Positions 12,231-16,537 of a stretch of 64,000 bases of DNA are shown piece after piece (within the stretch, counting starts at the first letter, position 1; each line of letters opens with the position of its first letter). A model generated the notes under the pieces. The model did not search any database, was not told the DNA's origin, and saw only the letters and a program-made list of their open reading frames with translations. Source of the DNA: Pseudovibrio brasiliensis. GTDB taxonomy: Bacteria; Pseudomonadota; Alphaproteobacteria; Rhizobiales; Stappiaceae. Where the stretch lies: positions 2,614,501 through 2,678,500 of the forward strand of contig NZ_CP074126.1 of assembly GCF_018282095.1 (NCBI RefSeq). The letters are read 5' to 3'. The translations under genes were made by a program, and so were the position numbers.

Positions 12231-12308
12231 AAACATTCTGCCGAAAAGCGGTCTCCGGTTTTTGGCAAATGTAGCGAAGCTCGAGAAGCTGAAAAGCGAT
12301 ACTTCAGA

Positions 12309-12336
12309 AAAAGGAGGCACTTTGCCTCCTTTTTTA
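12309..12336 (+). terminator. Rho-independent terminator of gltA
   Basis: The stem AAGGAGGCA (12311-12319) pairs with TGCCTCCTT (12323-12331), has a 3-base loop and ends in a T-tract. Confidence 0.92.
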
Positions 12337-12472
12337 TTTGAAACATTCTGTTTGCATTCAGCCCCTGCAAACCATGAGGCATCTTAATCCTGTTCATGCC
12401 TCGCCACTTCCCTATCCTCAACCTTTGAGCCAGCGTCTGGCCATGCCACCGGCATCAGGAAAGGAAGTGTTG

Positions 12473-12925
12473 ATGCGCCTTGTACCCCTCCCAGTTTTTG
12501 CAGCTGCTGCCCTCTTCTCAGCCGGACTGGTAACTTATTCCTTCGCCAACACCGATGTCACACAGGCCTCCAGAGATGTAACCTTCTCAGACCTCAGTAT
12601 GCAGGACGGCTCCTCAGACAATTCCATCTGCGTGGAGCGTTATGGCGACGGATACACGGTCTCCCCCTCCAAGGAAGCCCCAAAGCGCACCTACATCAGC
12701 GACAAGGGCCACACAGTCACCCTGGTAGACCGCAGTGAGATCATGGGACAAGGTATCTTTGCCGAACACGACCGGTTCATGATGACGTTCCCGGGCAATG
12801 GAGAGGAAGAGATCGAAGTCACTCAGTTCGTCACAGGACTGATCGGTGGCGATTCATATAGTGGCGTATTCACAGATGGCACCTGCACGGGCAAAGTTTC
12901 TGTTGGTCCATGGATAATGCCTTAA
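12473..12925 (+). CDS. Small secreted two-cysteine protein, tandem family member 1
   Basis: I do not recognise this family. The 150-residue product begins with a signal peptide (hydrophobic from about residue 5 to 24, likely cleavage near SFA-NT). It carries the features shared with the next five paralogs: VTFSDLSM, then Cys53 in CVERYGDGY, SDKGHTVTL, a FPGN turn, ITQF/VTQFVTGLIG and a C-terminal TDGTCTG with Cys138. The two Cys, 85 residues apart, suggest one disulfide in a periplasmic or secreted beta-rich domain. The ATG at 12473 has AGGAAAGGAAG upstream and gives a clean signal peptide; an upstream in-frame ATG at 12338 would bury it. It is closest to member 2 and is separated from it by 175 bases. 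Confidence 0.8.
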   Translation: MRLVPLPVFAAAALFSAGLVTYSFANTDVTQASRDVTFSDLSMQDGSSDNSICVERYGDGYTVSPSKEAPKRTYISDKGHTVTLVDRSEIMGQGIFAEHDRFMMTFPGNGEEEIEVTQFVTGLIGGDSYSGVFTDGTCTGKVSVGPWIMP

Positions 12926-13100
12926 CGCTCTGCCAAACCCAACCAGAGAGCCTAGGATTTTTCTTAAACACCCGCCGGTTCAATTCAGATGCGTTAAGCG
13001 GTGCACTTTAAACTCCGCTCAAGACAGCTGACAGCAACACAAATGCCATATTTTCCGAAATGAGAGGCAGGATACAGCAGGGTTTGAAATGGGAGTGGAC

Positions 13101-13586
13101 ATGCACCTAAACCAACTCAAGTATGCAGGTGTTTTGCTCGCCTTCACCCTTGCCTTCCCCGGCTCTGCAAGCGGCCAGTTCATTCATCGCGATAATCGGG
13201 CAAATCCATTCACCGACTTAAAGCGTCTGGGCACCTCCCGCCAAATCTCAATCCAGAGCCTGACTGTTCTCACCGATGCGGTGGGCGTCGAGTTCTGCAA
13301 AGAGCGCTATGGCAATGGCTACACCGTCTACCCTGACCCAAACGGGCGGCGCGGCCAGTTCGTCAGCGACAAGGGTCACAAGTTTAGTCTCTACGCTCGC
13401 AGTGAACTGCGTGGAGATGGGATTTATGCGGAACATTCCCAGATACTGATCAACTTCCCAAATGACCCGGATGTAGAAGTGGAGATCACTCAGTTTATCA
13501 CCGGCTTTGTGAACTCCAAGATGTTCAGCGGCGTCTTCTCAGACGGCGTCTGTTCCGGAAGATTCTCCGTCATCGACGCAAGATGA
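13101..13586 (+). CDS. Small secreted two-cysteine protein, tandem family member 2
   Basis: This is the second paralog of the unknown family, with 161 residues from the ATG at 13101. That start has GGGAGTGG just upstream; an ATG at 13089 is also possible and adds four residues. A signal peptide covers about residues 1-24 (ASG-QF). A 25-residue insert separates it from the conserved domain. The domain has Cys66 in CKERYGNGYTV, SDKGHKFSL, FPNDPDVEVEITQFITGF and SDGVCSG with Cys151. With member 1 it shares the ITQF/VTQF motif and lacks the HPD insertion of members 3, 5 and 6, so these two form a subgroup. The inverted acetyltransferase gene follows after 13 bases. Confidence 0.8.
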   Translation: MHLNQLKYAGVLLAFTLAFPGSASGQFIHRDNRANPFTDLKRLGTSRQISIQSLTVLTDAVGVEFCKERYGNGYTVYPDPNGRRGQFVSDKGHKFSLYARSELRGDGIYAEHSQILINFPNDPDVEVEITQFITGFVNSKMFSGVFSDGVCSGRFSVIDAR

Positions 13587-13599
13587 CACCGCCGGTTGT

Positions 13600-14064
13600 T
13601 TAAACACGCAACTCAAGACACTTGCTGACAGCATTCTCGGTGCTTTTGTAGGTGCGAAAACCAATTGCCTCATAGTAACCCAGACCTTCTGGATTGCTCG
13701 CCCCAATAGTCGCATCAATCTTCTCAAGGCCAGCCCCCTGCGCAGCGTCCAGTGTGGATGCAAACAGCGCACGCCCTACACCGCGGCGCGCAGCACTCGG
13801 GCGCACATGAGTACCGATAATGCCCCAGCCCGGCGTCACACCGTACGGATTGCCTTCTGAAGCACGTTTCAGGATCTGCAGACCGAGCAGTGCTCCATCC
13901 TTATCCTCAACCACAGAGCAGCGAATTTTGTCCGCATGAGCGATGTACTGTGAGCGCACATACTCTTCATCACTCGGCAGGCTCCGCTTTCCAAGCGCTG
14001 CCAACTCCTGCAAAAATCCGCTGATTTCCACAGCATCTGCCAGAACGGCTTCTCTGACTTTCAT
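13600..14064 (-). CDS. GNAT-family N-acetyltransferase
   Basis: The 154-residue protein is a cytoplasmic GCN5-related acetyltransferase; its substrate cannot be told from sequence. The acetyl-CoA binding motif A is visible as HVRPSAARRGVGRALF near residues 88-103. The C-terminal IGASNPEGLGYYEAIGFRTYK is the usual motif B region. I chose the ATG at 14064, which has GAGGTC at good spacing; an in-frame extension to 14124 lacks a ribosome-binding site. It lies on the opposite strand between members 2 and 3 of the secreted-protein family and splits that array. Whether it acts on them is unknown; cytoplasmic location makes it unlikely. Confidence 0.85.
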   Translation of the reverse strand: MKVREAVLADAVEISGFLQELAALGKRSLPSDEEYVRSQYIAHADKIRCSVVEDKDGALLGLQILKRASEGNPYGVTPGWGIIGTHVRPSAARRGVGRALFASTLDAAQGAGLEKIDATIGASNPEGLGYYEAIGFRTYKSTENAVSKCLELRV

Positions 14065-14367
14065 AAAAGACCTCAAATTGTGGATGTGCCCGTAAACCGC
14101 AATTGCAACGGGTAAAAAGAACAATGCAACAGAGTGGCTACCCTAGCACAACACCTTAGGCGCCCACGCCCGTACGAGGCGCAAATCTTCAGTTTTCACC
14201 TATGTTTACGCCCAGTGCATTACAAACCGACTAAATCCAGACACTCACTTCAAACCTATTCTTCATCCTAATGAAAATCAAAGTGCAACAAGAGCATTTG
14301 CGTTAACGCAGCAGGACTACTCTTTGCACGGCCTTTGGCCGGAAAAAGTAACGAGTGGTGGCACCCC

Positions 14368-14823
14368 ATGAAAAAAATCCTCTGCGCAGCAGCAAGTCTT
14401 GGCACAATCGCCTTTGTCAGCACCGCAGCTCTGGCAGACAATCACAGCCTCAGCAGCGACAATGAAACCGTCACATTCTCCAACCTGACAATGGCAGACG
14501 GAACACCTGACGACGGCACCTGCGCAAAACGCTACGGAACCGGTTATAAAACCACCGAACATCCCGACACAAACTCGCAGGCGGCTCAAAAAACAACGAC
14601 GCAGGGCCACGACATCATCATCTCCTCCACCGGAGGCACCATTGGTGATGGCATCCTATCCATCGAGAATGAGTACGAGATCATCTTCCCCAACGATGAG
14701 CATAAAGAAGCCATCGACGTGAAGATGTTCGCCACCGGCCTGATCGGCAGCGGCACAGCCACTGGCGTCTTTTCCGACGGCACCTGCCGCGGCAACGTCA
14801 CCATTCAATCTGCTCAGCAATAG
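14368..14823 (+). CDS. Small secreted two-cysteine protein, tandem family member 3
   Basis: This is the third paralog, 151 residues from the ATG at 14368. A standard signal peptide (MKKILCAAAS start, cleavage near ALA-DN at 23) is followed by VTFSNLTMADGTPDDG and Cys52 in CAKRYGTGY. An acidic and His-containing loop (TTEHPDTN), QGHDIIISS, IENEYEIIFPNDE and VFSDGTCRG with Cys140 complete the domain. It is very close to member 5, so these two look like a recent duplication. It starts a run of four genes (members 3-6) with short gaps that is probably one operon. The upstream 240 bases hold a 12-bp palindrome (14299-14310). No function can be assigned. Confidence 0.82.
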   Translation: MKKILCAAASLGTIAFVSTAALADNHSLSSDNETVTFSNLTMADGTPDDGTCAKRYGTGYKTTEHPDTNSQAAQKTTTQGHDIIISSTGGTIGDGILSIENEYEIIFPNDEHKEAIDVKMFATGLIGSGTATGVFSDGTCRGNVTIQSAQQ

Positions 14824-14835
14824 GACGACCGCCCC

Positions 14836-15342
14836 ATGAAAGCTGTCGCAAGCGCAGCACTAAGCTTGTTCATGGTTGCCTATGCAACACCCGCGGCTAA
14901 CGCTCTCAGCATCCGCGTTGGGATTGGCGATAAGATCACAACTTTCTCCGAAGTTGCACCGATCTACAACAAGTCAAATGCCAGCATATGTAAACAGCGC
15001 TACGGCAAGAGTTTCATCACAAAAGGCCATGCAGCGACAATCGAGGAAGAACGCCTGATAACCACCTCTGAAGGTCATAACATCGAACTCACCTACATCG
15101 GTGGTTATGTCGGAAGCGGAGTGTACTCCATTGAAAATCAGTACAAGTTCACCTTTCCCAATGACGGAGACCGAGATCCGATCAAGCTGCAACTCGCAGC
15201 AACAGGTTTCATTGGTGGAGGCCGCGCCAACGGCGTTTTCTCAGACGGCACATGTGTCGGCAAAATCACGATTGAGTTGATCGCACAACAGAACAGTGAG
15301 GCCACCTCCTCCTCACAGAGAAATGGCCCCGATAAAAACTAG
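14836..15342 (+). CDS. Small secreted two-cysteine protein, tandem family member 4
   Basis: This is the fourth paralog, with 168 residues, starting 12 bases after member 3. A signal peptide covers about residues 1-24 (ANA-LS). The domain is recognisable but more diverged: TTFSEVAPI, Cys52 in CKQRYGKSF, SEGHNIELTYIGG, SIENQYKFTFPNDGDRD, LAATGFIGG and VFSDGTCVG with Cys140. It ends in a polar, Ser/Gln/Asn-rich tail of about 20 residues that the other members lack. The remnant at 16345-16537 resembles this member most in its FPND and RAN-FSDG segments. The stop lies 10 bases before the start of member 5, consistent with one transcript. Confidence 0.8.
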   Translation: MKAVASAALSLFMVAYATPAANALSIRVGIGDKITTFSEVAPIYNKSNASICKQRYGKSFITKGHAATIEEERLITTSEGHNIELTYIGGYVGSGVYSIENQYKFTFPNDGDRDPIKLQLAATGFIGGGRANGVFSDGTCVGKITIELIAQQNSEATSSSQRNGPDKN

Positions 15343-15352
15343 TGACGGTATC

Positions 15353-15811
15353 ATGAAGACTCTATTCTGCACCGCAATCGCCTTTACAGCACTGGCCATC
15401 ACCGGTACGTCAGCCTTGGCTGTCGCCCAAAGGTTGGGCCCCGGCGACAAAGAAATCACCTTCTCCAACCTGTCCATGACCGACGGCACCCCGGATGACG
15501 GCACCTGCGCCAAACGCTATGGCGAAGGCTTCACCACCAGAAATCATCCAGACTCCACCAATGACGCCCTCAAACGCGGAACCGACAAAGGCCACGACAT
15601 CGTTGTGATTTCCATCGGCGGCAGCGTGAGCGCAGGCATCTTCTCCATCGAAAACGAGTACGAAATCATTTTTCCGAATGATGAGACCAAAACACCCGTA
15701 GATGTGGAACTCGCCGCCACAGGCCTTGTGGGAAGCCAGGAAGCCTCCGGCGTATTCTCCGACGGCACCTGCCGTGGCACCCTCCACATCAAAGTACTGA
15801 ACGAACCTTGA
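15353..15811 (+). CDS. Small secreted two-cysteine protein, tandem family member 5
   Basis: This is the fifth paralog, 152 residues from the ATG at 15353. The frame is open further upstream into member 4, but MKTLFCTAIA begins a normal signal peptide with cleavage near ALA-VA. The domain reads ITFSNLSMTDGTPDDG, Cys52 in CAKRYGEGF, a TRNHPDSTND loop, DKGHDIVVISIGG, SIENEYEIIFPNDE, ELAATGLVG and VFSDGTCRG with Cys140. Long stretches are identical or nearly so to member 3, including TPDDGTCAKRYG and ENEYEIIFPND. The neighbours, spacing and signal peptide suggest co-secretion with members 3, 4 and 6. Confidence 0.8.
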   Translation: MKTLFCTAIAFTALAITGTSALAVAQRLGPGDKEITFSNLSMTDGTPDDGTCAKRYGEGFTTRNHPDSTNDALKRGTDKGHDIVVISIGGSVSAGIFSIENEYEIIFPNDETKTPVDVELAATGLVGSQEASGVFSDGTCRGTLHIKVLNEP

Positions 15812-15864
15812 GGGTAACGAGACAGACCCCTCACCCCAGCTAAAGAGATTGAATGGAGCGAACC

Positions 15865-16326
15865 ATGAAAGCCGTTTCTCTCGCCATGTTCAGTACGCTT
15901 GCGCTAGTTATGACAAGCATCTCTGCACAAGCAATAATAGAAAAGCTCCACTTCAATGAAAACGTACTCACATTCTCGAAACTTGCTCTCGTTGATCCGA
16001 ACACAAAAAACGAGGATCTCTGCCAAAGCCGGTATGGTTCTATTTTCAAAACAACAGACCACCCGGAGTCTAATCAGTTCTCAATAAAGCGCACGACAGA
16101 CCAGGGGCATGATATCACGGTGATTTCGCGCAGCATCGACGTCAGAAAAGGCATCTTTTTCATCGAGAGCCAATACGAAGTCATTTTCCCGCAAGATACA
16201 AGCAAAACCCCAATTATCTTGGATATATCCGTCACTGGACTCATCGGAGCCCCAGACGCATCAGGCCTTTTTTCCGATGGCACGTGCAGAGGAGCCATTC
16301 ATGTCAGAAAACAGAACACTGACTGA
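15865..16326 (+). CDS. Small secreted two-cysteine protein, tandem family member 6
   Basis: This is the sixth paralog, with 153 residues from the ATG at 15865. That start has GGAGCGAACC upstream and opens the signal peptide MKAVSLAMF; an ATG at 15853 adds four residues. The domain keeps LTFSKLALVD, Cys53 in CQSRYGSIF, a TTDHPESN loop, DQGHDITVIS, IESQYEVIFPQD, VTGLIGAPDASG and LFSDGTCRG with Cys141. It differs by lysine-rich and isoleucine-rich stretches, a faster-diverging copy. It is 53 bases from member 5 and is the last intact gene of the array. Confidence 0.8.
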   Translation: MKAVSLAMFSTLALVMTSISAQAIIEKLHFNENVLTFSKLALVDPNTKNEDLCQSRYGSIFKTTDHPESNQFSIKRTTDQGHDITVISRSIDVRKGIFFIESQYEVIFPQDTSKTPIILDISVTGLIGAPDASGLFSDGTCRGAIHVRKQNTD

Positions 16327-16344
16327 ACACATAGATAATGAACA

Positions 16345-16537
16345 GTGATCAAGGAAAAAGCATACTCTATTATCTGCCTGCGTATTCATGAGAGCAGCCA
16401 CAGTTTTCAGCTCCCAGACAATGACCCTGATTAAAGAACCTGAGACCAACAACGCCCAAGTCTCATGGTTTGATGAGAGGCCAGCAAACGCACGCATCTT
16501 TTCAGATGGCAAATGTAACGACACAATAACCGTTTAA
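16345..16537 (+). pseudogene. Frameshifted remnant of a seventh family member
   Basis: Only the 3' part of the domain survives, split over two frames. In the frame starting at the GTG at 16345, SFQLPDNDPD resembles the FTFPNDGDRD segment of member 4 before a stop. In a second frame, from the ATG at 16388 to the stop at 16537, RPANARIFSDGKCNDTITV matches the C-terminal GRANGVFSDGTCVGKITI of member 4. No signal peptide and no first Cys motif are present. The array therefore once reached further towards lpxB and has decayed. A 49-residue product from 16388 could be made in theory but would lack most of the domain. Confidence 0.65.

Follow-up and report, generated by a model that had tools for sequence, protein, structure and literature searches.

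Passages of a study of the Neisseria protein ACP (PMC5507604) describe an eight-stranded barrel in which a disulfide joins the first strand to the last (Cys 38-Cys 121, 83 residues apart) and which inhibits lysozyme without the motifs of MliC, given there as SxSGAxY and YxxxTKG. Here we describe, in a 64,000-nucleotide stretch of Pseudovibrio brasiliensis DNA (hereafter the window), a family of small, putatively exported proteins encoded by six intact paralogues between gltA and lpxB. They resemble ACP and MliC/PliC (PF09864) in having a putative signal peptide, a single mature domain of about 100 residues or somewhat longer and a predicted eight-stranded antiparallel barrel, and resemble ACP further in one conserved cysteine pair, with a spacing mostly of 85 or 88. 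The family differs from both in its greater length, in a helix between strands 1 and 2 that bears the first cysteine, in the signatures CxxRYG and FSDGTCxG, and in its occurrence in tandem arrays. We regard this anatomy of the array and its products, detailed below, as well supported.

Alignment of the six proteins revealed 18 invariant columns, including (in the numbering of gene 3) C52, R55, Y56, G57, G80, H81, F107, P108, G133, F135, D137, G138, C140 and G142. A reading of the window made from sequence alone (the sequence-only reading) had placed two cysteines 85-88 residues apart in all six products; the measured spacings are 85, 85, 88, 88, 88 and 88 for genes 1 to 6, with an extra cysteine within the signal-peptide region of genes 3 and 5. 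Across the 61 family sequences used, C52 is present in all and the second cysteine in 59, at spacings of 83-92. A simple heuristic, with rough cut positions, likewise agreed with the signal peptide that had been ascribed to each gene: all six proteins open with a basic residue, their hydrophobic stretches reach a Kyte-Doolittle mean of 2.1-2.7 over the best nine consecutive residues, and a signal-peptidase site is possible in each; a heuristic scan detected a lipobox in none of them. These features suggest export by way of a cleaved signal peptide. Structure models of genes 3 and 2 show the same eight-stranded antiparallel beta-barrel (predicted local distance difference test, pLDDT, 79.3 and 78.7), in which a putative disulfide between the conserved cysteines could link the beginning of strand 8 to the short helix that separates strands 1 and 2. 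No match under E 0.001 was obtained for either model with Foldseek, nor any under E 0.001 in a viral structure library.

Searches of Pfam, NCBIfam and PHROGs at E-values up to 1 returned nothing convincing for the six proteins, and the defence-system models of PADLOC were unmatched by them at E-values up to 0.1. When 47 members were compared singly with Pfam, only stray matches emerged (best E 0.045), and three sequence searches of the PDB gave either no match or cortactin SH3 chains at E about 1. The initial view that the proteins belong to no recognised family was therefore upheld, none of the four libraries providing a fit and no strong match to a characterised family being found. A profile of the six proteins retrieved, besides its own members, an orphan paralogue elsewhere in the same genome (E 1.4e-31), and a later profile retrieved a copy from a sister genus (genome G774; E 4e-29); these two matches put the family far beyond chance. 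Passages on Pseudovibrio in two genome comparisons of the genus (PMC4811931, PMC5959193) and in two further publications (PMC11796379, PMC5348524), supplements apart, do not mention it. With 61 sequences, a fixed locus and a sister-genus copy, this is a well-bounded orphan family without a match in the libraries searched; its fold type is already known, and on present evidence it is not a new kind of system. A mobile origin was considered and rejected: gene 3 was unmatched in 72,556 plasmid and 50,697 phage records, the G774 copy was unmatched in plasmids, and the family profile had no confirmed match in viral contigs.

Among the genomes sampled, the family is nearly confined to Pseudovibrio, where ten named loci document it. 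Carriers comprise 12 of 87 Stappiaceae genomes, namely 11 of 16 Pseudovibrio, with one to ten copies each, and the sister-genus genome G774; three more (G008 at E 0.24, G798 and G800, the three spanning E 0.24-0.56) were judged chance matches and left out of this count. Broader sets, which are samples and may miss members, yielded three carriers among 397 genomes of the order, all Pseudovibrio, and the window's genome as sole carrier among 385 of the class; among 398 of the phylum, two matches beyond the window's genome (E 0.015 and 0.025, over 46-48 positions) were judged chance. In the window's genome an orphan about 1.5 Mb from the array brings the membership to seven. The five Pseudovibrio genomes lacking the family are the smallest of the genus set (3.7-4.4 Mb versus 4.7-6.5 Mb). 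In one of these, G008, 26 residues match the C-terminal motif (locus L104, contig C25, near 4.3 kb; E 0.0082 in a small set), probably by chance.

In every one of the 12 carriers a member lies between gltA and lpxB. Ten of these loci are arrays of three to nine copies, truncated copies counted, and two (G010 and G774) hold a single copy. The proposal that the genes form an accessory insertion at this junction was borne out, the two flanking genes being close together in three of the five family-less Pseudovibrio (G008, G011 and G012; ends about 140-160 bp apart) and in six sister-genus genomes examined (about 90-675 bp); in the family-less G001, lpxB was not found in the stretch behind gltA. 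The junction may be a general insertion site. In G013, also family-less, it carries 4.4 kb (locus L080) with three unrelated open reading frames (ORFs; 341, 682 and 138 codons), glycosyltransferase-like on visual inspection. In G005, copies 1 and 2 flank an IS21-type element, and copy 1 has lost its normal end. The acetyltransferase (GNAT) gene that accompanies the window's array occurs at the junction in nine of ten arrays, and away from it in G010; at 72% identity or more it is present in 10 of 11 family-bearing Pseudovibrio and in none of the five family-less, a co-occurrence that possibly reflects shared ancestry alone. Eight genomes have an orphan copy.

Phylogenetic trees of 60 and 57 rows separated genes 1-2 from genes 3-6 and the orphans on a branch with 100/100 support, the same subgroups that had been recognised by eye. 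A recent duplication giving genes 3 and 5, part of the same suggestion, did not survive: the pair are old paralogues, 54% identical with a synonymous divergence (dS) of 1.29, and each clusters with its own counterpart in P. denitrificans G006 and other genomes rather than with the other. Counterparts of each of genes 1 to 6 occur in two or more other genomes, which dates most of the duplications before those species. Ratios of nonsynonymous to synonymous divergence (dN/dS) between orthologues were 0.04-0.21 in 17 of 18 pairs, the remaining pair having saturated dS, as against 0-0.06 for gltA and lpxB pairs. Orthologues of the family are thus under purifying selection, yet evolve faster than their core neighbours, and most of the larger Pseudovibrio genomes keep three to nine copies per array under such constraint. 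Truncated copies in G002, G005 and G009, together with the probable remnant in the window, indicate that copies are also lost.

The two single-copy loci share a distinctive neighbourhood. In G774 (L103:7943-10035) the barrel gene is followed by a gene for a GRDP-like protein (110 residues; PF07173 at E 0.0037, below that model's cut-off), then by one for a HisC/CobD-like aminotransferase (PF00155), then by lpxB; in G010 (L068:6697-8783), of the other genus, the three genes have the same order and site. Close GRDP-like relatives (E 2e-30 or better) number five copies in 4 of 87 genomes, four of them directly 3' of a barrel gene, with weak matches only (E 2e-11 or worse) in 28 further genomes; only G010 and G774 yielded an aminotransferase relative at E 1e-40. 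Perhaps this three-gene cassette, known from two sites, is the founding arrangement, lost where barrels multiplied. The GRDP-like protein was rejected as a general partner of the barrels, since no barrel lies within 3.5 kb of five plasmid-borne GRDP-like genes or at a second copy in G010. On plasmids of Halomonas (L144:1508-5227) and Pseudomonas (L147:3342-5227) the next gene after the GRDP-like one has about 440 codons and no assigned function; on the former, this pair adjoins genes for a LuxR-type regulator and an acyl-homoserine-lactone synthase.

As to function, we tentatively favour, by analogy with inhibitors of this general build, exported binding proteins rather than enzymes, each of which would block or sequester something encountered in the periplasm or outside the cell, the likeliest target being a host's or competitor's enzyme or peptide. 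Divergence of the paralogues in charge, and in the loops at one end of the barrel, would let them cover different targets, and the array would descend from a copy at the gltA-lpxB junction through birth and death of tandem copies. What we count, with the same reserve, in favour of binding proteins is the recurrence of one barrel in two models, the conserved cysteine pair, the likeness to ACP, the low dN/dS, the differing charge of the paralogues (isoelectric points, from rough mature ends, of 4.3-5.3 for the gene-1 type, n=9, 4.1-4.5 for the gene-3 type, n=10, and 5.0-8.6 for the gene-2 type, n=13) and a contrast in the occurrence of MliC. With the PF09864 model, MliC genes turn up in 21 of 61 relatives but not in the window's genome; matches occur in none of 11 family-bearing Pseudovibrio versus 16 of 26 other Stappiaceae (14 of 21 from other genera and two of five family-less Pseudovibrio), a difference of p 0.0006 with relatedness ignored and G774 outside the set, some of the matches resembling domains of larger proteins. 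Should the proteins bind host molecules, they would be defined candidate contact factors for a genus whose isolates often come from sponges and other invertebrates. A more elaborate version strikes us as quite unlikely: that exported, disulfide-closed barrels specific to Stappiaceae replaced MliC-type inhibitors, starting from the cassette and proceeding to Pseudovibrio paralogues of differing charge, each neutralising a different enzyme from an animal host or a competitor. Several observations pull against binding proteins of this type. The first cysteine belongs to the helix that follows strand 1 rather than to the strand itself; ACP and MliC are absent from the best 50 fold matches, as is Inh, which excludes neither family; neither MliC motif occurs in any of the 61 sequences (a looser pattern, SG-x(1,3)-Y, does in seven); and alignment of the family profile (31 rows) with 11 MliC domains by hhalign gave a probability of 0.2% over 6 columns. 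Within the genus, the MliC contrast reaches only p 0.083, relatedness again ignored. Single copies have the GRDP-like and aminotransferase genes as neighbours, and in the four orphan loci read the orphan lies behind a peptide-type ATP-binding cassette (ABC) importer operon (SBP_bac_5, two BPD_transp_1 and a double ABC_tran with oligo_HPY in the window's genome); both settings are also compatible with a carrier or an enzyme partner. Membership of MliC itself was rejected, Pfam (PF09864 unmatched at E 0.1 by 47 members), motif and profile comparisons all failing to connect the two.

One rival reading takes the proteins as carriers like lipocalins or avidin, with the barrel interior holding a small ligand (lipid, peptide or cofactor) for periplasmic uptake or scavenging. 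This is possible, if doubtful: the array itself adjoins no transporter, neither model had a Foldseek match under the threshold above, and avidin-like and fatty-acid-binding barrels showed no sequence match to the family in the three PDB searches. The sequence-only reading had entertained envelope stress, competition, adhesion or host interaction, each still conjectural. We would restate its wider role in adhesion or competition as that of surface or secreted factors without inhibitor or carrier function, which appears unlikely; predicted export, multiple copies and variability would suit it, as would the inclusion among carriers of named Pseudovibrio species, a genus that passages of its literature describe as common with marine invertebrates, but the library scans (Pfam, NCBIfam, PHROGs, PADLOC) matched no adhesin, toxin or immunity family, and the six proteins lack a surface anchor or lipobox. 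A very improbable alternative makes the barrel the substrate, or the working partner, of the GRDP-like protein and aminotransferase encoded beside single copies. The identical gene order in G774 and G010 and the position of four of the five close GRDP-like copies speak for such a partnership, but a close GRDP-like relative was not found in 8 of the 12 family-bearing genomes, the window's included, nor an aminotransferase relative in 10 of the 12, and barrels are conserved even in genomes without cassette relatives. The best-ranking fold match for both models was the barrel of Cap15, an effector of the cyclic oligonucleotide-based antiphage signalling system (CBASS; PDB 7n34), a rank that is not diagnostic. 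Cap15 consists of a cytoplasmic domain carried by two membrane helices, whereas the family has an export-type start and a cysteine pair, shares about 10% identity with it and has no PADLOC match; that these are Cap15-like cyclic nucleotide receptors is scarcely credible. Exported binding proteins remain the interpretation to which we lean.

The layout of the window's locus is given in Table 1. The region had been presented as a tandem array of six genes reaching to position 16537. Six intact paralogues between gltA and lpxB are indeed present, but a GNAT gene on the opposite strand, missing from that account, interrupts them, and they end short of that position; the rest holds a probable degenerate seventh copy that had also been overlooked, graded as only probable because its E-value was the best of 60 tblastn queries.

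Table 1. Features of the array and its gltA-side flank, in positions of the window.
Feature	Position	Strand	Remarks
Family member 1	12473..12925	+	150-residue ORF
Family member 2	13101..13586	+	161-residue ORF; alternative in-frame ATG at 13089 possible
GNAT acetyltransferase gene	13600..14064	-	PF00583, E 1.6e-8; between members 2 and 3
Family member 3	14368..14823	+	151-residue ORF
Family member 4	14836..15342	+	168-residue ORF
Family member 5	15353..15811	+	152-residue ORF
Family member 6	15865..16326	+	153-residue ORF
Probable seventh-copy remnant (C-terminal part, degenerate)	16388..16537	+	Short frame with IFSDGKC; best tblastn E 2e-4
Hairpin with T run 3' of gltA, probable terminator between gltA and array	12303..12342	+	Fold -19.4 kcal/mol

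A promoter scan of the region was uninformative (3 sites versus 3.3 expected), and the hairpin behind gltA is not among the entries of a consensus scan. Its fold is nonetheless strong (z -5.7; none of 200 shuffles equally low), and the array is therefore probably its own transcription unit, transcribed independently of gltA. Another contig of G010 (C3:6243-7522) carries a second gltA-like sequence in pieces; their identity to the window's gltA is 74-90%, and two contain an in-frame stop.
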